In this document: piece after piece, positions 49,590 through 59,100 of the stretch
Layout: every line of letters starts with the position of its first letter
How positions within the stretch are numbered: position 1 is the first letter of the stretch
From: Donghicola tyrosinivorans
Lineage (GTDB): Bacteria; Pseudomonadota; Alphaproteobacteria; Rhodobacterales; Rhodobacteraceae
Direction: 5' to 3'
DNA length: 64,000 bases
Assembly: GCF_003003355.1 (NCBI RefSeq)
Contig: NZ_PVTQ01000006.1
Span: 1 to 64,000, forward strand
Notes under the pieces: model-generated
Database searches by the model: none
The model's input: only the letters and a program-made list of their open reading frames with translations
What the model was told of the DNA's origin: nothing
Position numbers and translations under genes: made by a program

Positions 49590-51758
49590 ATGTACCGCAC
49601 GCGTGTCTGCTTGACCGCAGCCATTGCGCTTTTCGCGCATGAAGCTGCCGCCGAGATGAACTTCAACCGCATCGCAAGCTTTGCCACCCCCGCCAACATG
49701 GCTGCAGGCGAAGACATGAACCGCGAAACCTCGGCCGAGATCATTTCGGTAACCGAGGATGGCATGACGCTGGTCTACACCGACAGCCCCCTTGGCGTGA
49801 TCGGTCGCATCGACATTACCGATCCCAAAGCCCCCAAGGCGATGGGTAATGTGGACATGGGCGGCGAGCCGACTTCGGTTGTCGTGGCCGGCGCCTCCGC
49901 GCTGGTTGGTGTGAATACCTCGGACAGCTATACGCAGCCGTCGGGCAAACTGGTGACCGTGGATGTGGCCTCTGGTGATATCATTTCGGAATGCGATCTT
50001 GGCGGTCAGCCGGATTCAATTGCGAAATCGGATGATAATTCGTTTGTGACTCTGGCGATTGAGAACGAGCGTGACGAAGATCTGGGCGATGGCCGTGTTG
50101 GGCAGGAACCTGCTGGTTTCATGGTGAAATTGCCGTTGCAAAACAACGCGCCTGTCTGTGACCAGATGCAGAAGATCGACGTGACCGGTCTGACCGAGAT
50201 CGCTCCGAACGACCCCGAGCCTGAGTTCGCGGATGTGAATGGTCTGGGCGAAATCGCTGTGACGCTGCAGGAAAACAACGCCATCGTCATCATCGGTGCC
50301 GACGGTAAAATCATGAACAGCTTTTCGGCGGGTGCCGTTGATCTGACCGAGATTGACGCCACAGATGAGCGCGGCGCGCTTGTCTTTACCGAAAGCCAGA
50401 TGGGCCGCTTGCGCGAGCCCGACGGTCTTGGCTGGATTGACAACGATCATTTTGTCATTGCGAACGAAGGCGACATGGACGGCGGTTCGCGCGGGATCAC
50501 CGTGTTCAATAAGAACGGCACCGTTATCTACGAGAGCGGCAACAGCTTTGAACACGCTGTCATCCAGTCCGGCCATTACCCCGACAAACGTTCGGATGCA
50601 AAAGGCGTTGAACCTGAGGGGATGGAAGTTGCCACCTTCGGCGGCACGCCCTACGCCTTCGTTTTGGCAGAGCGCGCGTCGGTCGCCGGTGTCTACGATA
50701 TGACCGACCCTGCCAACCCGGTGTTGAAGCAAATCCTACCGTCGGGCATCAGCCCTGAAGGCGCCGTTGCGATCCCCGCGCGGAACCTGCTGGCCACCGC
50801 GAATGAGGCGGACCTTGGTGAAGACGGTGCAGCCCGTGCGCATGTGATGATCTACGAATATCAGGACGCGCCCGCAGCTTACCCGACCATCACGTCGGCC
50901 GGTGCGGAAGATCTGATCGGTTGGGGTGCTCTGTCGGGGATGACCTACGCTGATGGCAAGGTCTATGCGGTGAACGACAGCTTCTACAGCTACCAGCCCA
51001 CCATCTTCCAGATCGATGCCACGCAGACACCTGCCAAGATCGAAAAAGCCATCTCTGTGACCCGCGCTGGTCGCCCTGCCCAGAAGTTGGACATGGAAGG
51101 TATCGCAGCCGTCGGCGAAGGCGGTTTCTGGATTGCAAGCGAAGGCCGGACGGACCGTGTCGTCCCCCATGCGCTGTATCACGTGAACGACAAAGGCGCG
51201 ATCAAAGAAGAAATCGGCCTACCTGCCGAGCTGATGGCCGTCGAAAAGCGTTATGGCTTCGAAGGCATCACCAAGATTGGCAACACCCTGTGGATGGCCG
51301 TTCAGCGTGAATGGGCGGACGACGAAAAAGGCATGGTCAAACTGGTGGCCTACAACCTTGAAACCGAAGAGTGGGGCGCAATGCACTACCCGCTGGACAA
51401 GGGCGAGGAAGGCTGGGTTGGCCTGTCGGAAATCACTCTGCACGGGGATGCAGTCTACTTCATCGAACGTGACAACCAGATCGGTGATGCTGCCAAGATC
51501 AAGCAAATCACACGCGTTCGTGCTGCAGATTTGGTTCCCGCACCGCTGGGTGGTGAACTGCCGGTGGTTGCCAAAGAAGTCGTGCGCGATCTGATCCCTG
51601 ACCTCAAAGCCTTCGGCGGTTATGTCGTGGACAAAGTCGAAGGTCTGACCTTCGACGGCGAAGGCAACATGCTGGTGATCAGCGATAACGATGGTGTCGA
51701 CGATAGCTCGGGCGAGACGTTCTTCCTGAACCTTGGCCCCGTGACCGCGATGAACTGA
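49590..51758 (+). CDS. periplasmic phytase-esterase-like beta-propeller protein
   Basis: A 722-residue secreted protein with signal peptide MYRTRVCLTAAIALFAHEAAAE. The first two thirds repeat propeller-blade motifs (TLVYTDSPLGVIGRIDITD, GKLVTVDVASGDII, RGITVFNKNG); the C-terminal third matches the esterase-like-activity-of-phytase family, with GWGALSGMTYADGKVYAVNDS, KLDMEGIAAVGEGGFWIASEG, RYGFEGIT and VEGLTFDGEGNMLVISDNDG. Likely a metal-dependent phosphatase or esterase, but substrate is unknown. Gene stands alone, ended by a strong terminator, next to genes for phosphorus handling. Confidence 0.85.
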   Translation: MYRTRVCLTAAIALFAHEAAAEMNFNRIASFATPANMAAGEDMNRETSAEIISVTEDGMTLVYTDSPLGVIGRIDITDPKAPKAMGNVDMGGEPTSVVVAGASALVGVNTSDSYTQPSGKLVTVDVASGDIISECDLGGQPDSIAKSDDNSFVTLAIENERDEDLGDGRVGQEPAGFMVKLPLQNNAPVCDQMQKIDVTGLTEIAPNDPEPEFADVNGLGEIAVTLQENNAIVIIGADGKIMNSFSAGAVDLTEIDATDERGALVFTESQMGRLREPDGLGWIDNDHFVIANEGDMDGGSRGITVFNKNGTVIYESGNSFEHAVIQSGHYPDKRSDAKGVEPEGMEVATFGGTPYAFVLAERASVAGVYDMTDPANPVLKQILPSGISPEGAVAIPARNLLATANEADLGEDGAARAHVMIYEYQDAPAAYPTITSAGAEDLIGWGALSGMTYADGKVYAVNDSFYSYQPTIFQIDATQTPAKIEKAISVTRAGRPAQKLDMEGIAAVGEGGFWIASEGRTDRVVPHALYHVNDKGAIKEEIGLPAELMAVEKRYGFEGITKIGNTLWMAVQREWADDEKGMVKLVAYNLETEEWGAMHYPLDKGEEGWVGLSEITLHGDAVYFIERDNQIGDAAKIKQITRVRAADLVPAPLGGELPVVAKEVVRDLIPDLKAFGGYVVDKVEGLTFDGEGNMLVISDNDGVDDSSGETFFLNLGPVTAMN

Positions 51759-51782
51759 TCTAGACGTCTGTTACTAAACGGA

Positions 51783-51814
51783 AAAGCGGCGCACAGGAAG
51801 CTGTGCGCCGCTTT
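51783..51814. terminator. bidirectional terminator
   Basis: Perfect 14-base stem AAAGCGGCGCACAG (51783-51796)/CTGTGCGCCGCTTT (51801-51814) with loop GAAG, followed by GCTTTTT. It lies between the converging phytase-esterase-like gene and the CYTH gene. Confidence 0.9.
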
Positions 51815-51886
51815 GCTTTTTGTGCCTTTGCCGAAACATGTCCGGCAAACACGGGACGTCCCATTTTTGACCCGTAGACTCTGTGA

Positions 51887-52369
51887 TCACGTGCCCGGCG
51901 GCAATGTACCCGCGCTGGCGAGGGCACTGTTCTTGTAGCGCTTATCTTCGGTGACATCTGTGCCGAACCAATCGGGCGGGCTGAAGGCTTTGGCAGCCTC
52001 TAGTTTTGCGAACTCGACCTCAACCATAACCAAACCGGTTAGTGCCCCTTCAAAAATATCGACTTCGCAAGGGAAACCATCGCTTAACGTGCCGGTATAA
52101 CGGGTCTTTTCAAGGCGGCGACCTTCGGTGGCGGGCCAGAGGGTGTCGAACTGTTCCTGGCTCAGCGCGGTTTCATATTCTGCCCGCGCCAAAGTCCCCT
52201 TGGATTTCACGGTGATGAAGTACCCCTGCCCCTTCTGGCGCACGCGGACCTCATGCCCTTCGCCGCCGACCGTGATGTAGCCTTGGCGGACCACTTCGGC
52301 GACATAACCGCTCAGGTCCGGCGCGGTCGGCACAAGGAACTTGCGTTCGATTTCTTGCACGGCGCTCAT
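51887..52369 (-). CDS. CYTH-domain protein (triphosphate tunnel enzyme family)
   Basis: A 160-residue single-domain CYTH protein. The defining N-terminal EIERKFLV (residues 6-13) is intact, followed by alternating charged strands EVRVRQKGQGYFITVKSKG, ARAEYETALS, RRLEKTRY, EVDIFEG and VEVEFAKLEAA that line the tunnel with Glu, Arg and Lys. Family members hydrolyse inorganic triphosphate or nucleotide triphosphates with Mg or Mn. It is the last gene of the RHH-CHAD-ParA-CYTH operon, four bases after the ParA stop, so a polyphosphate-related role is inferred. Confidence 0.93.
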   Translation of the reverse strand: MSAVQEIERKFLVPTAPDLSGYVAEVVRQGYITVGGEGHEVRVRQKGQGYFITVKSKGTLARAEYETALSQEQFDTLWPATEGRRLEKTRYTGTLSDGFPCEVDIFEGALTGLVMVEVEFAKLEAAKAFSPPDWFGTDVTEDKRYKNSALASAGTLPPGT

Positions 52370-52373
52370 GGGA

Positions 52374-53117
52374 TTATAGCCTTTCCATCAGTTCATCGTG
52401 AAGCGTTCCATAGGCTTGCGCGGCTTGACTGCGGGGTGCGGTTGCCATGACTGGCGCGCGCTGAACGCCCATCCTCTCGATATCGGAGGTGAAGGCGATC
52501 TGGGTCTTTAGAAAGCGCTTTTTGTGCTGTTTGCGCATATCTTCCATCGTTTGCCCATGCAGGGACTTCACGCCTTGGGTCATGGAAAAGAATGCGTGCA
52601 GCTTTTTCAGGGGCAGTTTGTTGGCCTGAAAAAACTGCTCCAACTGGATATAGGTGCGCTGGGACAAGGTCGTCGGGATCACCGGCACAATGATGCCATC
52701 GGCGGCGCTGAAGACATTCTCGGAGAGGGTCGAGATATTGGGCGGGCAGTCCAGCAAGATCACATCGTAATCCCCCTTCACTGCCTTCAGAGCCTTTTTC
52801 AACCGCGAGCGACTGTTCCGCATCCGGCTGAGAAACACGTCAAAATCGCGGAAGGTCATGTTGGCGGGCAGTATGTCCAAACCGTCAAAGTCACTGGCGC
52901 GGATCGCTTTGGTAAACCGTTCAACGTCCTCGAAAAACTTGGTTTCAGTCAGCTTTTTCGAGGGCTTTACACGAAAATAAAAGCTCGAGGCCCCCTGCGG
53001 GTCCAGATCGCACAGCAGCGTACGCTGGCCCTTTGCCGCCAAAGCGTAGGCAAGGTTCACCGCCGTCGCGGTTTTTCCCACGCCGCCTTTGTTCGAATAG
53101 CAGGCAATGATCTTCAT
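52374..53117 (-). CDS. ParA-family partition ATPase
   Basis: A 247-residue deviant-Walker ATPase: MKIIACYSNKGGVGKTATAVNLA with the ParA signature KGGVGKT at residues 10-16, TLLCDLDPQGASS (Walker A'), and VILLDCPPNISTLSENV (Walker B). It lacks an N-terminal DNA-binding domain, so it belongs to the short class (ParF, McdA, PpfA type) that usually works with a small adaptor. Lysine-rich sequence around residues 170-200 could bind DNA nonspecifically. Two bases separate it from the CHAD stop, four from the CYTH start. No plasmid replication gene is nearby, so cargo positioning on the chromosome is inferred. Confidence 0.93.
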   Translation of the reverse strand: MKIIACYSNKGGVGKTATAVNLAYALAAKGQRTLLCDLDPQGASSFYFRVKPSKKLTETKFFEDVERFTKAIRASDFDGLDILPANMTFRDFDVFLSRMRNSRSRLKKALKAVKGDYDVILLDCPPNISTLSENVFSAADGIIVPVIPTTLSQRTYIQLEQFFQANKLPLKKLHAFFSMTQGVKSLHGQTMEDMRKQHKKRFLKTQIAFTSDIERMGVQRAPVMATAPRSQAAQAYGTLHDELMERL

Positions 53118-53119
53118 TC

Positions 53120-54643
53120 TCAGCTTTTCCCCCCATGGAACAGATCGCGGAAAGTCTGTTGTGTTTCTTTGCTGTTGAACATTGCAAAACTGTCCACGAC
53201 CTTTAGCCTTTCCTCTCGCTGGCGCTGGTGCAGCACGGCAATCAAAGCACCGACGCTTTGGGCAAGCTGCATGTTGCGATCATGGTCCTTTGTGCCGAGG
53301 CTATCCAGAAACGCGGTAAGACTGTTTTGTTGCACCGAATAGTCGTTGAATAGACCAAGGTTATCCTGAAGCTTTTTCAATGGCTTGAGAAGTGACTTGA
53401 AAGCGGTTTTCGGGAATGCAGGGGCAAAGAACTCCATCAGGTAGCGCAGTTTTTTGCACTGGATGCGTAGTTCATGGACCATTTCGTCCTCGGTTTGATC
53501 GTCAATCGCCTCAGCGATCTGGCAGATCTTGCGGTAGCGTTTCCAGATCAGCTTTGCTGCATAGGTCTGCGCATTCCGATCGCCCTCGGGCCCCGGACGC
53601 AGCTTGTGGCAGGTGTCGAAGCGGTTGATCAGGGCGGTGATCTCGGCCTCATAGGCGGGGCTTTGGAGGTGCGCGGCCAGTGTTGCCAATTGGGCTGTGC
53701 GCTCTTCGGCGAACATCTGGAACATTCGCTCCAGACCGGCGTGCAGGCTTTCGGGCAGCAGATCGAAAAAGAACTGACGTTCTTGCATATAAACATCCAG
53801 ATCGCGCAGACGGCCGGTCAGGGCCATCAGGTCCGAGAATTGCTGCTTTAGCGCCAGTGTCTGTTTGTCTTTGTAGACATCTTTGAAGAGGCTCAGAACG
53901 GATCGGATTTTCCGCAGAGCGATCCGGTAATCGTGCAGGAATTCGATGTCCGTATCTGCGATGATGCCGGCCTCATTCCGGCGGGCCACTGCCAGATAGG
54001 CTTTGATGATCCCGGTCGCGGCATCATAAGCCGTTGTTTTGGCGCCTAGTTTCAGATCAGGTTTTGCCACATAGGGGCGATGGTCGGGGTTGAGTGCGGC
54101 GATAACCGAGGCTTCGGTCAGCGTCTTTGCCCCGCATGCACCCAGTGCCTTGATCAGCTGTGTATAGGCGCCATCGTAGCCGCGCAGGGCTTGCGGTTGG
54201 ACGATGGCGGCAGAGCCGTCTTGGGCCGTCAGTACGTGGAATTCTGCGCGGGCGCGGGTCTTTTCTTCCGTGTCTACCAACGCCAGCAGCACCTGCTGCA
54301 TCCGCCCCTGCGCCATAGGTAATAGACTGCGCAGTTCCGGCACGGCCCCGAGTGCCTGCCTAACCGGACCGTCAGGCAAATCCGTGACAAACTCAACCGG
54401 GTCCTTCCCAACGTACTGTGTGATCGGGCCATGGGCGGCAGGCCAAAGCAACAGATCGGATCCGCTTCGCACCAGACATATCCCACGACGGCGCAGATGT
54501 TCGTCGTGGGTGTCCAACACTTTGAAGGGAAAATCATTCTCGCCGCGCGTCAGGCGCGCCCGCAGCTTTCCGATAGGTTTGCCCGACAAGGTATCAAGCG
54601 CATCGGACCTGACAAGGTAGCTCGGCAAAAATGTCAGAGACAT
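53120..54643 (-). CDS. CHAD-domain protein (predicted polyphosphate binding)
   Basis: A 507-residue protein. The C-terminal CHAD domain (about 205-490) shows its conserved basic helical motifs: EFLHDYRIALRKIRSVLSLFK, TGRLRDLDVYM and MVHELRIQCKKLRYLMEFF, with His/Arg/Lys positioned to bind polyphosphate. The N-terminal 200 residues keep a degenerate CYTH-like fold (KLRARLTRGENDFPFKVLDTHDEHLRRRGICLV split across 27-58) but lack the ExExK start motif. Known CHAD proteins (phosins) coat polyphosphate granules. It is four bases after the RHH gene and two before the ParA gene. Confidence 0.92.
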   Translation of the reverse strand: MSLTFLPSYLVRSDALDTLSGKPIGKLRARLTRGENDFPFKVLDTHDEHLRRRGICLVRSGSDLLLWPAAHGPITQYVGKDPVEFVTDLPDGPVRQALGAVPELRSLLPMAQGRMQQVLLALVDTEEKTRARAEFHVLTAQDGSAAIVQPQALRGYDGAYTQLIKALGACGAKTLTEASVIAALNPDHRPYVAKPDLKLGAKTTAYDAATGIIKAYLAVARRNEAGIIADTDIEFLHDYRIALRKIRSVLSLFKDVYKDKQTLALKQQFSDLMALTGRLRDLDVYMQERQFFFDLLPESLHAGLERMFQMFAEERTAQLATLAAHLQSPAYEAEITALINRFDTCHKLRPGPEGDRNAQTYAAKLIWKRYRKICQIAEAIDDQTEDEMVHELRIQCKKLRYLMEFFAPAFPKTAFKSLLKPLKKLQDNLGLFNDYSVQQNSLTAFLDSLGTKDHDRNMQLAQSVGALIAVLHQRQREERLKVVDSFAMFNSKETQQTFRDLFHGGKS

Positions 54644-54647
54644 AAAC

Positions 54648-54821
54648 TCAGGACCTTTTCAAATAGTCTTCAACAAGGGTTTCAATGATCTTCTGGACGC
54701 TGCTGTCTTCTTCAATGGCCCGCAATTTCAGGGCCTTGAGCGTCTTGGCCTCCAGACGCAGTGAGGTGTTTTTCTTCTTGTCCTTGCCCTCTTTGTCGGA
54801 GGCATCTTTTTGTTTCGGCAT
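54648..54821 (-). CDS. small ribbon-helix-helix protein (ParG/CopG-like)
   Basis: A 57-residue protein too short for routine gene callers. It has a flexible Lys-rich N-terminus (MPKQKDASDKEGKDKKK), then a ribbon-helix-helix core: strand NTSLRLEA, helix KTLKALKLRAIEED, turn SSVQ and helix KIIETLVEDYLKRS. ParG, the partner of the short ParA protein ParF, has the same design: mobile basic tail plus RHH dimer. The stop is four bases before the CHAD start, making it the leader of the operon. A perfect inverted repeat lies 12 bases upstream, a likely binding site. The ribosome-binding site is weak. Confidence 0.82.
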   Translation of the reverse strand: MPKQKDASDKEGKDKKKNTSLRLEAKTLKALKLRAIEEDSSVQKIIETLVEDYLKRS

Positions 54822-54832
54822 CGGGGCACCAT

Positions 54833-54854
54833 TGATGACGTAATGACGTCATCA
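54833..54854. promoter_or_regulatory. inverted-repeat candidate operator/partition site of the RHH-ParA operon
   Basis: Perfect nine-base arms TGATGACGT (54833-54841) and ACGTCATCA (54846-54854) around the spacer AATG. The motif TGACGT/ATGACG also recurs as direct repeats inside. It lies just upstream of the RHH gene start (54821), where RHH regulators commonly bind short repeats and where centromere-like parS sites of ParF/ParG systems occur. Confidence 0.7.
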
Positions 54855-55011
54855 TTTCACGGTGGTGTGGGTATTGCAATCATGGGGCGAGTTTTTCTTG
54901 ACTGCACTCCCGCGGGGCGACAAGGCCGCGCCATGACTGTCTTTAAGGGCGACATAAAAGTTTCGTGGACCTGTCACTGTCTCTTTGCATTGCGGTGATT
55001 TCTGAAACCTC

Positions 55012-56091
55012 ATGCAAACGAGTGACCCTTTTATTCAGATCGACAACGTCCGCCGCGCCTTCGAAAACAGCATTGCGCTGGACGGCGTGTCTGTCTCGTT
55101 CGAGCGGGGTGCGTTCTCGGTTTTGCTGGGACCCTCGGGCTGCGGTAAGTCCACCTTATTGCGTCTGATCGCGGGTCTGGACCAGCCGACCGCCGGTGTA
55201 ATCTGGGTTGAGGGCAAGGATGTCACCGCCCTGCCACCAAGCGGACGGGATCTGTCGATGGTCTTCCAGTCCTACGCGCTGTTCCCGCATCTGTCTGTCG
55301 CGCAGAACATCCTGTTTGGATTGACGGTGCGCCGGACAGCCAAGGCGGATATGTCCCGCCGTTTGGCTGTTGTGGCGCAGATGATGGGGTTGTCCGCCTT
55401 TCTGGATCGCAAGCCTGCGCAGCTTTCGGGCGGCCAACAGCAGCGAGTGGCCTTGGCGCGCGCAGTGATCAGCGAACGGCCGATTTGTTTGATGGATGAA
55501 CCTCTTTCGAACCTTGACGCAAAGCTGCGGGCCGAAATGCGGGTCGAGCTGCGGGCTTTGCAGCAAAAGCTGAGGCTGACAGTGATCTACGTGACCCATG
55601 ATCAGGTCGAGGCCATGACCATGGCTGACAAGATCATTGTCATGAACGCGGGCCGTGTTGATCAGGTTGGCACGCCCGAGCAGATTTACACCCGTCCCGC
55701 ATCGACCTTCACGGCGGGCTTTATCGGGACGCCGCCGATGGCCCTGTTCGATCCGGTTGATTTGGCAGGTGGGCCTGTGCCGCAGGTGCGCCAGCCCCAT
55801 GTGATCGGGCTGCGACCCGAAGACATCCACCTTAGCCATTCGGGGCCGACTGCGCGGTTGACGGGCGTTGAATATCTGGGTGCGGACCGACTGATTTCGG
55901 CCCAAGCGGGGCAGACAGCGTTCATCATGCGCACCCCCGCCAGCGCCCCTTTGCCGGCGCCAAAATTCCGGTTTGGTTGGCTTGCCGCATCGGCCAGCGT
56001 CTTTGACGCTACCACAGGCAAACGTTTGCCCCAGTACGATTTTCCCACCCCGTCCCTAGCTCAAAAGGACACGACCCATGAAACTGCGTAA
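55012..56091 (+). CDS. UgpC/MalK-like ABC importer ATPase
   Basis: A 359-residue ATPase of a carbohydrate-type ABC importer. Walker A GPSGCGKST (about residues 43-51), Q-loop FQSYALFPHLSV, signature [14 protein letters not shown], Walker B ICLMDEPLSN and His-switch VIYVTHDQVEAMT are all intact. A C-terminal TOBE-like domain (from about 240) includes VIGLRPEDIHLS. First gene of the ugp-like operon, divergent from the RHH-CHAD-ParA-CYTH operon; its end overlaps the binding-protein gene by 14 bases. Energises uptake by the two permeases encoded downstream. Confidence 0.93.
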   Translation: MQTSDPFIQIDNVRRAFENSIALDGVSVSFERGAFSVLLGPSGCGKSTLLRLIAGLDQPTAGVIWVEGKDVTALPPSGRDLSMVFQSYALFPHLSVAQNILFGLTVRRTAKADMSRRLAVVAQMMGLSAFLDRKPAQLSGGQQQRVALARAVISERPICLMDEPLSNLDAKLRAEMRVELRALQQKLRLTVIYVTHDQVEAMTMADKIIVMNAGRVDQVGTPEQIYTRPASTFTAGFIGTPPMALFDPVDLAGGPVPQVRQPHVIGLRPEDIHLSHSGPTARLTGVEYLGADRLISAQAGQTAFIMRTPASAPLPAPKFRFGWLAASASVFDATTGKRLPQYDFPTPSLAQKDTTHETA

Positions 56092-57352
56092 CGTCTTTTT
56101 CGCCAGCAGCGCGCTTGTCGCTTTGGCAAGCGGTGCTTCGGCACTCGATCTGGAGTTCTACTTTCCCGTAGCCGTCGGTGGCGCGGCAGCGGACACCATA
56201 CAGAGCCTGACCGAAGAATACATGTCCTTGAACGAGGGCGTGAACATCGAGGCGATCTACACCGGCTCTTACGCGGACACGACCACCAAGGCGATCACTG
56301 CCGTGCGTGGTGGCAATGCACCCCAGCTGATCATTTCGCTCTCGACCGACATGTTCACCTTCATCGACGAAGACATGATCGTGGCGTGGGATGATTTCGT
56401 CACCGAAGACGAGCAGAAAGACTGGATCGGCGGCTTTTACTCCGCATTCATGGCGAACAGTCAGACCGAAGGTAAAACCTGGGGTATCCCCTTCCAGCGC
56501 TCGACCCCTGTTCTGTATTGGAACAAAGAGGCCTTTGCCGCCGCAGGTCTGAACCCCGATCAAGGCCCCGCCAACTGGGCCGAGATGGTGGAGATGGGCA
56601 AGGCCCTGACCGTCAAGGATGACGCTGGTAACGTCACCCAATGGGGCGTGCATATTCCGTCGTCGGGCTTCCCCTCGTGGCTCTGGACTGGTGTTGTCGC
56701 TGGTAACGCCGGCAAGCTGGCGGACCAGTCGGGTACCAAGGTGTCTTTTAATTCGGACGAAGCTGTTGGCGCTCTTGAGGCACTGGTTGCCCTCTCGACC
56801 ACGGACGAAGTCATGGCTCCCGGCATTCTGGATTGGGGCGGCACGCCCAAGGCCTTCTTTGACGGTCAGGCCGCGATGATCTGGACCACCACCGGCAACC
56901 TTACCAACGTGCGCACCAATGCGCCCTTTGATTTTGGCGTTGGCTTCCTGCCTGGTCTGACCCAGAACGGCGCACCCACCGGCGGCGGCAACTTCTATCT
57001 GATCAAAGGCTCGGATCAGGCAGAGCTTCAGGGCGCTGCGGATTTCGTGAAATGGGTCACCGCGCCTGAACAGGCCGCCAAATGGACCATTGCAACCGGC
57101 TATGTGGCACCCCGTCCCGACGTTTGGGAAACCGAGACCATGAAGGCCTACACCGCTGATTTCCCGCAAGCGCTTGTCGCCCGTGACCAGCTGGAGTTCG
57201 CCGTTCCCGAACTGTCGACCTTCGAAGGGCCTAAAGTCACCCAGACGCTGAATTCGGCTCTGGAGTCGGCGATCACCGGTCAGGCTAGCCCGCGCGATGC
57301 GCTGGACGGCGCTCAGGCTGCCGCTGAAGCAATCCTGAAGCCCTATTTCTAA
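56078..57352 (+). CDS. UgpB-like periplasmic substrate-binding protein
   Basis: A 424-residue family-1 extracellular binding protein with signal peptide MKLRNVFFASSALVALASGASALD. Its opening DLEFYFPVAVGGAAADTIQSL, then YTGSYADTTTKAITAVRGGNAPQLI, and WGIPFQRSTPVLYWNKEAF, resembles UgpB (sn-glycerol-3-phosphate or glycerophosphodiester binding). The substrate is inferred, but placement beside phosphonate uptake and polyphosphate-linked genes favours an organophosphate. It overlaps the ATPase gene by 14 bases. Confidence 0.9.
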   Translation: MKLRNVFFASSALVALASGASALDLEFYFPVAVGGAAADTIQSLTEEYMSLNEGVNIEAIYTGSYADTTTKAITAVRGGNAPQLIISLSTDMFTFIDEDMIVAWDDFVTEDEQKDWIGGFYSAFMANSQTEGKTWGIPFQRSTPVLYWNKEAFAAAGLNPDQGPANWAEMVEMGKALTVKDDAGNVTQWGVHIPSSGFPSWLWTGVVAGNAGKLADQSGTKVSFNSDEAVGALEALVALSTTDEVMAPGILDWGGTPKAFFDGQAAMIWTTTGNLTNVRTNAPFDFGVGFLPGLTQNGAPTGGGNFYLIKGSDQAELQGAADFVKWVTAPEQAAKWTIATGYVAPRPDVWETETMKAYTADFPQALVARDQLEFAVPELSTFEGPKVTQTLNSALESAITGQASPRDALDGAQAAAEAILKPYF

Positions 57353-57412
57353 ACCCAAGACGCGGGGTGCCTGTCACAGGTGCCCCGTTTCCCTTTCGGG
57401 CGGAGCGATACA

Positions 57413-58285
57413 ATGGTGAAACGGGAATGGATTTACGCGTGGGCGCTGCTCTTGCCTGCTTTTGTATTCCTGATCACGTTCACCCATCTGCCTGCCGTCC
57501 AAACGCTGATCAACAGCCTGTATACCACGCCCAAGGGCCGACGCGCGGCGATGTTCACGGGCCTTGGCAATTATCAGCAAATGCTCAGCGATCCGGTCTT
57601 CCTGAAGGCTATGGTGAATTCTGGGATCTATGCGCTGGTGACCATTCTGGCTTCGATCCTGCTGGCCTTGGCGATGGCGCTGCTGGTGCATCGCAGTTTT
57701 CGCGGCGTGGGCCTCATGCGGATGTCATTTTTCACTCCCACGGTGCTGCCCCTGATCGCGGTAGCGAATATCTGGCTGTTCTTTTACGCGCCGGGGTTTG
57801 GTCTGATCGACCAGATCCGCGTGTTCTTTGGTCTGGCATCAGCCAATTACGCGGGCCAGCCTGATACCGCTCTTTATGCAGTCGCAGCCGTGACGATCTG
57901 GAAAGAGGCGGGCTTTTTCATGATCTTTTTCCTTGCCGCCCTGCAGACCGTCCCCGAAACCCTGCGCGAGGCTGCCGCGATCGAGGGCTGTTCCCGTTGG
58001 ACTTTTTTTCGCCGCGTGACCTTGCCGTTGATCATGCCAACAACGCTGTTTGTCTCGGTCAATGCGGTGATCAACGCCTTCCGGCTCGTGGACCATGTAT
58101 TCGTGATGACCAAAGGCGGGCCGGACAATGCCTCGATGCTGCTGCTTTACTATATCTTCGAGACCGGCTTTCGCTACTGGGACACAGCCTATGCAGGGGC
58201 GCTGACCATGGTTCTGATTGCCATCCTCGCGGCAGTCGGGATCGGGCAGTTCTTTCTGGCTGACAAGCGGGTGCACTACAGATGA
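57413..58285 (+). CDS. UgpA-like ABC importer permease
   Basis: A 290-residue inner-membrane permease with six hydrophobic segments. The EAA-type coupling loop is EAAAIEGCSRWTFFRRVTLPLI (split around residues 190-212), contacting the ATPase. I place the start at ATG 57413 (MVKREWIYAW) behind GGCGGAG rather than the upstream frame start at 57380. It overlaps the second permease gene by four bases. Confidence 0.92.
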   Translation: MVKREWIYAWALLLPAFVFLITFTHLPAVQTLINSLYTTPKGRRAAMFTGLGNYQQMLSDPVFLKAMVNSGIYALVTILASILLALAMALLVHRSFRGVGLMRMSFFTPTVLPLIAVANIWLFFYAPGFGLIDQIRVFFGLASANYAGQPDTALYAVAAVTIWKEAGFFMIFFLAALQTVPETLREAAAIEGCSRWTFFRRVTLPLIMPTTLFVSVNAVINAFRLVDHVFVMTKGGPDNASMLLLYYIFETGFRYWDTAYAGALTMVLIAILAAVGIGQFFLADKRVHYR

Positions 58286-59100
58286 TGCAGGACACAGCCC
58301 TTGATCGCATTTTAATGCGCAGCGGTGGTGCACTGCTGGCGCTGCTTTGGTTTGTACCGCTGGCCTATGCGATTTGGGCAGCCTTTCACCCCGCCGCCTT
58401 TGAGGCACGCTTTGATCTGACCGCGCCGCTGACCCTTGGGAATTTTTCGGCGGCGTGGCAGCAGGCTCCTTTTGCCCGCTATTTTCTGAACACCTTTCTT
58501 TTGGTGGCGATGATCCTTGCAGCGCAACTAGTGCTGTGCACGCTGGCCGCCTTTGCCTTTGCGCGGCTCTCGTTTCCCGGAAAGTCGATCCTGTTCGCCT
58601 TGATCCTGCTGCAACTGCTGGTCATGCCCGACATCCTGCTGGTCGAGAATTATAAGACCATGCGGGCGCTTGGGCTGGTGGATTCAATTCTAGCGATTGG
58701 CCTGCCCTATTTTGCTTCGGGCTTTGCGATCTTTCTGCTGCGCCAAACCTTCATGACCATCCCCAAAGAACTGGATGAAGCCGCGCGGATCGAAGGCTGC
58801 TCCCTTCTTGGCGTCTTGTGGCGGGTCTATGTGCCTTTGGGCAAGCCCGCGATGCTGGCCTTTGGTCTCGTGTCGGTCAGCCATCACTGGAACAACTTTC
58901 TGTGGCCGCTGATCATCACCAATTCGGTCGAGACGCGTCCTCTGACCGTGGGTCTGTCGATCTTTGCTACCACTGACAGCGGCACCTCTTGGGCGGTGAT
59001 CAATGCGGCGACACTGATGACCGCGGCCCCGCTGCTCTTGGGATTTCTTCTGTTTCAACGCCAGTTCGTGCAAAGCTTTATGCGCGCTGGCATCAAGTAA
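58282..59100 (+). CDS. UgpE-like ABC importer permease
   Basis: A 272-residue permease with six hydrophobic segments and the coupling loop DEAARIEGCSLLGVLWRVYVPL. It starts four bases inside the first permease gene and forms the heterodimeric channel with it. The C-terminal part FLLFQRQFVQSFMRAGIK is typical of the MalG/UgpE family. Confidence 0.93.
   Translation: MMQDTALDRILMRSGGALLALLWFVPLAYAIWAAFHPAAFEARFDLTAPLTLGNFSAAWQQAPFARYFLNTFLLVAMILAAQLVLCTLAAFAFARLSFPGKSILFALILLQLLVMPDILLVENYKTMRALGLVDSILAIGLPYFASGFAIFLLRQTFMTIPKELDEAARIEGCSLLGVLWRVYVPLGKPAMLAFGLVSVSHHWNNFLWPLIITNSVETRPLTVGLSIFATTDSGTSWAVINAATLMTAAPLLLGFLLFQRQFVQSFMRAGIK

Follow-up and report, generated by a model that had tools for sequence, protein, structure and literature searches.

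What does a ParA-family ATPase do when its gene stands between those of a CHAD protein and a CYTH protein? The question is raised by an operon in a 64,000-nucleotide stretch of the genome of Donghicola tyrosinivorans (contig NZ_PVTQ01000006.1, positions 1 to 64,000; hereafter the window), where four genes run on the minus strand from 54821 down to 51887. They encode a 57-aa ribbon-helix-helix (RHH) protein (54648-54821; Pfam RHH_1, 22.3 bits with a cut-off of 20.5, and family alignment), a 507-aa CHAD protein (53120-54643; Pfam CHAD PF05235, 197 bits), a 247-aa ParA-family ATPase (52374-53117; Pfam AAA_31, 138 bits) and a 160-aa CYTH/TTM protein (51887-52369; Pfam CYTH, 29.6 bits with a cut-off of 23.2). 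The gaps of 4, 2 and 4 bases between these genes, described in a first-pass annotation of the DNA, were borne out by the re-read coordinates and the Pfam matches. The same annotation had proposed that a ParF/ParG-type partition module had been combined with polyphosphate proteins. This ParA is specifically and repeatedly paired with a CHAD protein of the polyphosphate-binding kind, in many loci with a CYTH protein of the tripolyphosphatase type as well, and the operon is therefore best read as acting in the handling or positioning of polyphosphate; partition of the ParF/ParG type is the half of the proposal that we abandon. By analogy with known ParA-type positioning systems, we lean slightly towards a chromosomal system whose cargo would be polyphosphate and in which the CHAD protein would be the adaptor.

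It is an open question how polyphosphate bodies are placed and shared out in bacteria, and the CHAD-ParA pair is a named pair with which to address it; active positioning or sharing-out of these phosphate storage bodies may occur in some species. In the portion of a 2025 review available to us, the table gives only AlgP for polyphosphate positioning, with its ATP dependence marked as unknown, and the text states that energy use in the localisation of polyhydroxybutyrate (PHB) and polyphosphate remains to be seen (PMC13052382). No paper on a CHAD-ParA operon was found in the literature searched, which covers few subscription papers and no bioRxiv preprints. The pair occurs in tractable bacteria, among them Ruegeria, Paracoccus denitrificans and Nitrosomonas europaea.

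Recurrence of the CHAD-ParA pair

Recurrence was followed in three samples (CHAD-anchored, ParA-anchored and whole-genome), the first and third of which share genomes. For the ParA-anchored sample, two peptide patterns were used to draw 377 confirmed relatives from 84,980 species genomes, and the best 80 of these, close relatives with at least 68% identity, were examined. A CHAD gene of this type lay directly upstream of ParA in 80/80 loci, the ParA start falling -7 to +5 nt relative to the CHAD stop. The record titles, which include Ruegeria, Paracoccus, Salipiger, Cohaesibacter, Shinella, Alcaligenaceae and Nitrosomonas, cover Alpha- and Betaproteobacteria. When the 1.2-kb upstream flanks of 78 loci were compared, they fell into 43 nucleotide-similarity groups (the largest of 24), and the CHAD cores formed one group; the flank groups were defined by blastn and diverged homologous flanks therefore count separately. 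Fusion of CHAD and ParA into one gene was ruled out in all 80 loci, as the CHAD reading frame is closed by a stop no more than 7 nt from the start of ParA, and the long open frames met in some neighbourhoods are start- or stop-bounded frames rather than fusions. Two genes were split over two frames, CHAD in L096 and CYTH in L101.

The other two genes are less constant. Same-strand CYTH was present in 60/80 loci and RHH (E < 1e-3) in 44/80, where the RHH and CYTH counts, like the operator counts given below, depend on the E-value limits chosen. The four-gene neighbourhood of the first-pass annotation was therefore recovered in part: the CHAD-ParA pair recurs throughout, while the full quartet was found in only 36/80 loci. 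The core is CHAD-ParA, and CYTH and RHH are optional.

Among 295 genomes of the family, this ParA was found in 19 (E <= 6e-127; next best match 1e-40), with the CHAD gene seen directly in 18 and inferred across a contig break in G220. The CHAD-anchored sample consisted of 61 neighbourhoods, the window included, out of 81 CHAD places; the other 20 have E >= 3e-28, and one of them, in G220, continues L068, where a window-type CHAD gene lies at a contig end. Twenty-one of the 61 neighbourhoods were of the window's type, 18 of them with an intact adjacent downstream ParA, and no ParA stood directly beside CHAD in any of the 40 family loci with CHAD genes of other types, which include other long and short CHADs. 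In two of these 40, L071 and L077, a ParA from a different subfamily (E ~1e-11) lies somewhere within 10 kb; in L077 it lies ~0.8 kb from CHAD on the opposite strand, with an open frame in between. The D. tyrosinivorans genome itself (4.68 Mb, 61 contigs) gave a single CHAD match in a genome-wide search, and the ParA and CHAD proteins of its congener G039 and of L091 (Donghicola mangrovi) are identical.

Wider samples of 385 class and 349 phylum genomes were checked at the loci listed for them, within 1.5 kb of ParA; 7 non-window loci were listed in one and 29 in the other, where 65 genomes matched. ParAs at E <= 1.6e-83 had CHAD upstream in 6/6 of these non-window loci (L172, L173, L174, L179, L180 and L181, with L179 a member of the query alignment), whereas weaker ParAs had it in 2/30 (L188 and L189). 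Because of this difference, the CHAD linkage is a property of one ParA subfamily. By the three samples above, the association of the two genes is more than chance. Mirror-tree correlations (r of 0.80 for ParA-CHAD and 0.80 for ParA-CYTH) were set aside as a sign of contact, since shared descent explains them.

The pair is also carried on plasmids. Nine plasmid records held a CHAD gene of this kind; six from Paracoccus and one from Thiodictyon were read by their annotation, in which the ParA appears as an AAA family ATPase, and the other two, Photobacterium GJ3 (L210, unannotated) and Photobacterium DA100, stood outside that reading. On all six Paracoccus plasmids CHAD is followed by the AAA-family ATPase and then by CYTH; an RHH gene is annotated on five of them and was confirmed with an RHH profile, and TGACGTCA, an element discussed below, lies upstream of CHAD in 6/6. 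One copy adjoins pstB-phoU-phoB, which we count among the points in favour of a polyphosphate cargo. A Nudix gene follows downstream in four of the six, as it does in L036, L042 and L049 (= L132), but was rejected as a core member because it is too rare.

The four proteins and the upstream repeat

The predicted structure (AlphaFold) of the CHAD protein has a mean predicted local distance difference test (pLDDT) of 90.8 and, together with Pfam, divides the protein into an N-terminal domain of TTM/CYTH fold (~1-190) and a long CHAD domain (~191-505). The latter closely resembles CtCHAD of Chlorobium tepidum (Q8KE09; 6qv7, 6qva, 3e0s), with Z ~35 and 32% identity over ~310 residues; superposition on the CtCHAD-polyphosphate complex 6qva gave Z 34.6 and 1.7 Å over 307 residues. 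The crystal numbering of CtCHAD starts at 207, which implies an N-terminal part of similar size. According to the available part of its description, mutations of His253, Arg256, Arg260, Arg296 and Arg418/Tyr419 in CtCHAD cut polyphosphate binding (PMC6537752). By alignment and count, the equivalents in the window protein are the same residues, namely H237, R240, R244, R280, R400 and Y401, and the comparison covers these six tested contacts with the distal binding surfaces left out. An alignment of 98 rows, which stand for 90 distinct loci since eight loci were entered twice through both genome sets, has R240, R244, R280, R400 and Y401 in 98/98 rows and H237 in 96/98. By homology, then, the CHAD protein is of the polyphosphate-binding kind.

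The degenerate CYTH-like N-terminus that the first-pass annotation had seen in this protein is recognisable in the model as a TTM/CYTH fold, with no Pfam hit to go with it; residues 3-186 match TTM/CYTH proteins, for example 2gfg_C with Z 9.4 and 3.9 Å over 163 residues. This domain is probably inactive, because none of the 98 rows has an ExExK motif within its first 40 residues.

The ParA protein is Soj-like and has no extra N-terminal domain. Its deviant Walker A motif KGGVGKT is intact (K10, G11-G14 and K15 in 98/98 rows; T16 in 97/98, with S in one), and D39, Q41 and D123 are likewise kept in 98/98. Its structural model, which has a mean pLDDT of 82.5 and a weak stretch at 41-60, matched Soj/ParA best, with Z 26.4 and 2.5 Å over 227 residues for Soj 1wcv, followed by MinD (24.5), FleN (24.4), BcsQ (24.1), McdA (22.6) and ParF (22.4). 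By its Walker A motif, switch Asp, Walker B Asp and Soj fold the protein belongs to the ParA/MinD superfamily. No NCBIfam cut-off was reached among the 25 of 35 matches listed; membership of the ParA_partition family NF041546 (92 bits, cut-off 180) and of the BcsQ cellulose ATPases (TIGR03371; 75.5 bits, cut-off 157.85) was rejected.

The CYTH protein had been described as intact, and this agrees with its Pfam score, its ExExK motif (kept in 69/70 rows, the exception L116 being a partial frame) and its homology to the Nitrosomonas europaea protein NE1496 (E 6e-50 to 3typ and 1e-49 to 2fbl). In the Nitrosomonas copy of the operon (L109), the CYTH protein is NE1496 itself, with no difference from the solved chain across residues 4-154. 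We take NE1496 to be the enzyme called NeuTTM. NeuTTM is described as a highly specific tripolyphosphatase, and in the part of the source text available no placement in a ParA-CHAD operon was found and its cellular role is left open by the authors (PMC3440374). The window CYTH protein is accordingly predicted to be a tripolyphosphatase, and the CHAD-ParA operon may supply a physiological setting for NeuTTM.

Upstream of the operon, the perfect 9-bp inverted repeat of the first-pass annotation was confirmed as TGATGACGT-AATG-ACGTCATCA (plus strand; 54833-54854, with arms at 54833-54841 and 54846-54854 and a 4-bp spacer). This operator-like repeat ends 11 bases ahead of the RHH start codon and contains TGACGTCA at 54844-54851; TGACGTAATGACGTCA is a candidate RHH target. 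The 16-bp site TGACGTNATGACGTCA occurs at one place in the 4.68-Mb genome at 0-1 mismatch; at two mismatches six further places were found, and a reversed control pattern gave 2 matches. The 330 bp before CHAD were then examined in 79 loci, L104 being too short as it begins inside CHAD. TGACGTCA was present in 32/36 loci with a clear RHH gene, 3/8 with a weak one and 1/35 without RHH, and two control stretches gave 0 in each class. The operator is thus linked to the RHH gene. Among the 36 clear-RHH loci the perfect element occurs once in 31, twice in 1 and not in 4, and near many sites there is an imperfect second copy. Because TGACGTCA is usually single and is lost where RHH is missing, we read the RHH protein, which has a Lys-rich basic N-terminal tail in the family alignment, as probably a self-repressing and replaceable regulator of its operon. 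In L046 and L050 the protein encoded upstream of CHAD matches a different family, RHH_9, below its cut-off. A toxin-antitoxin reading of the RHH protein was set aside, with CopG_antitoxin at 17.4 bits (cut-off 28) and the operon flanked by an ABC ATPase and a phytase-like protein.

As a separate observation, the RHH gene appears to be decaying in L127, L144, L150, L163 and L169 (Ruegeria, Phaeobacter), where CHAD-ParA-CYTH is still found. The operator also appears to be decaying in most of these loci, which form a natural series of regulator loss.

Proposed polyphosphate positioning and its rivals

The mechanism that we propose is modelled on McdA/McdB, by which carboxysomes are distributed. 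The CHAD protein would coat or grip polyphosphate via its basic pore and serve as the adaptor, while ATP-bound ParA would bind the nucleoid non-specifically and contact the CHAD protein. CHAD-stimulated ATP hydrolysis would free ParA locally, so that the polyphosphate bodies would spread along the nucleoid and both daughters would inherit them. The NeuTTM-like CYTH protein would clear tripolyphosphate left by polyphosphate breakdown, and the RHH protein would act at the TGACGTCA operator as a repressor of the operon to which it belongs. That CHAD and ParA touch, that ParA binds the nucleoid and that polyphosphate bodies are moved or spaced are points drawn from the McdAB analogy, and CYTH activity in the window's organism and repression by RHH are likewise expectations.

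The likeness to McdA/McdB consists in a ParA-type ATPase gene beside that of a proposed cargo-binding partner (CHAD upstream in 80/80 loci, cargo binding by homology) and in the presence of McdA among the structural matches (Z 22.6, 2.8 Å over 226 residues), although McdA is not the closest of these. McdB partners are small and largely disordered, whereas the partner here is a folded CHAD protein of 507 aa (pLDDT 90.8), the cargo would be polyphosphate, and the gene set often extends to a hydrolase and an RHH regulator. Gene neighbourhood has previously been used to assign ParA cargo, as reported in the available part of PMC10241942. AlgP, which acts in polyphosphate granule spacing in Pseudomonas aeruginosa, shares with our reading a proposed link between polyphosphate and the nucleoid; AlgP, however, is one histone-H1-like DNA-binding protein without an ATPase, and is likened here by description, not by sequence.

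Several observations weigh against a polyphosphate-positioning role. Movement, granule binding and CHAD-ParA contact are points that we infer, and ParA-fold ATPases can also be regulators that position nothing, such as BcsQ and FleN. The best PDB sequence match of the ParA goes under the name cobyrinic acid a,c-diamide synthase (4pfs, E 3.7e-25), with a ParA (8ray, 2.8e-24) and then Soj next. Two window-type CHAD genes lack a working ParA: in L045 (G043) the ParA is truncated, and in L056 (G102), where CHAD is cut by the contig start, no ParA is in view. On the Thiodictyon plasmid, where the CHAD is only distantly related, no ParA is annotated next to CHAD. The family is moreover patchy (19/295 genomes), and positioning is therefore not generally needed. 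Lastly, PPK1 was not found in 8/19 operon genomes, compared with 27/276 others (Fisher p 0.0005, uncorrected for relatedness); one of the eight, G220, is only 75% complete, and absence in G213, G215 and G220 was read from their not appearing among the matched genomes.

Such PPK1-negative carriers would depend on PPK2. Co-occurrence with ppk, which the first-pass annotation proposed to test, was seen for PPK2, found in all 18 operon genomes tested, and was incomplete for PPK1. PPK2 does not discriminate, however, since it is present in 33/33 genomes tested: besides the 18 carriers of the operon, these were G043 and 14 genomes that lack both the operon and a PPK1 match. Seven of the 33, and only these (G005, G031, G043, G044, G138, G213 and G215), also have a third type of PPK2 with lower scores (~260-275 bits); all seven carry a window-type CHAD gene and are without a PPK1 match, and this third type may be their polyphosphate synthase.

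The chief rival to positioning, which we consider unlikely, is that ParA acts as a regulatory switch akin to BcsQ or FleN, binding CHAD and controlling the assembly, size or consumption of the bodies, or else recruiting CHAD to a fixed place, in either case without moving cargo. It draws on the nearness of BcsQ and FleN to Soj in structural Z (24.1 and 24.4 vs 26.4), on the company of CYTH and, in some loci, Nudix hydrolases, which hints at metabolism, and on the patchy family in which PPK1 is often not found; yet the best structural matches are Soj/ParA, and the BcsQ family model gave less than its cut-off (75.5 vs 157.85 bits). That the operon instead makes a static tether, with CHAD linking polyphosphate to nucleoid-bound ParA in the manner of AlgP, either holding bodies apart or bringing polyphosphate to DNA without ATP-driven movement, seems improbable to us: the Walker and switch residues examined are retained throughout the 98 ParA rows (90 distinct loci; T16 is S in one), and a passive tether would not need them, even though such tethers have been described, in the parts of the sources available, for polyphosphate and PHB granules (PMC9239181, PMC13052382).

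We give very little credence to the proposal of a ParF/ParG-like DNA partition cassette for the stability of a plasmid or other element, with RHH binding a centromere and CHAD and CYTH as passengers. The operon does share with the ParF/ParG-parH families a short ParA that lacks an N-terminal extension (Z 22.4 to ParF), a basic-tailed RHH protein and an inverted repeat upstream; the module is found on the six Paracoccus plasmids, and a second imperfect half often lies near the upstream site. In those families, however, the RHH gene adjoins parA and the centromere repeats form an array. Here the CHAD gene intervenes between ParA and RHH, which heads the operon, and the upstream region usually holds one perfect TGACGTCA, at times accompanied by an imperfect second element, rather than an array; of the 32 clear-RHH loci with a perfect element, 31 have it singly. 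RHH accompanies ParA in 44/80 loci (L104, one of the other 36, has no upstream view) and was not found in 35 of the 79 with its place in view, whereas CHAD, present in 80/80, is the constant partner; the second family, RHH_9, can moreover stand in the upstream position. The ParF/ParG analogy was not borne out. Least credible of all is that the genes are merely co-regulated without a shared mechanism, for example as a phosphate-stress operon: the operator is indeed tied to the operon's first gene, but CHAD-ParA persists where RHH, CYTH or both are missing, and does so across many flanking contexts.

Polyphosphate positioning thus remains the reading that we prefer. Whether it extends to a widespread, horizontally mobile and polyphosphate-dedicated ParA system, with CHAD as cargo receptor, is to our minds evenly balanced; such a system would be the first ATP-driven machine for the positioning and inheritance of a purely inorganic polymer body.

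Flanking genes and sister ParA loci

Downstream, a gene for a 722-aa phytase-like esterase protein (PF13449; 49590-51758) converges on the operon. Between it and the CYTH gene lies a terminator-like hairpin of 14 pairs (51783-51814, scored on the plus strand), which was found by consensus match alone in a pattern scan that gave 5 terminator-type hairpins vs 4.4 in shuffles; its stem could act for both directions. No sigma-70-like promoter was found ahead of the operon in the pattern scan of 51700-55100. On the other side lies an ATP-binding cassette (ABC) transporter set (55012-59100), and after it comes a gene whose product has a xylose-isomerase-like barrel. The statement of the first-pass annotation that the next operons import phosphorus compounds is weakly supported, for the set is most like UgpBAEC and each importer gene scored below its NCBIfam cut-off (373/432, 157/411, 125/335 and 123/297). 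The ABC ATPase gene is at the same place in the congener L041, and its relatives elsewhere are in other positions (20 other loci mapped).

The record L095, titled Enemella evansiae, which we take to be an actinobacterial name, has ParA and CHAD proteins identical to those of G002, and G002 belongs to the same family as the window's organism; the public label of L095 is probably wrong.

Related ParAs were met in other settings. A more distant ParA (E ~1e-49) in L175 and L176 belongs to a different family and is preceded by what looks like rpoZ. A sister subfamily (E ~1e-66 to 1e-70) is divergent from a gene for an RnfH-type ubiquitin-fold protein in L195, L199, L200, L202 and L204 and, by eye, also in L192, L193, L196 and L207; PF03658 was confirmed for the RnfH-type gene in L199 and L204. 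Several of these RnfH-type neighbours have a long Lys/Ala-rich, histone-H1-like tail, and a nearby gene is presumably truA. The sister ParA and the RnfH-type gene may be another ParA-adaptor pair. Directly upstream of yet another sister ParA, in L198 (939-1406), lies a gene for a helix-hairpin-helix protein (HHH_5) with a Lys/Ala-rich tail, which resembles granule-to-DNA tethers such as PhaH.

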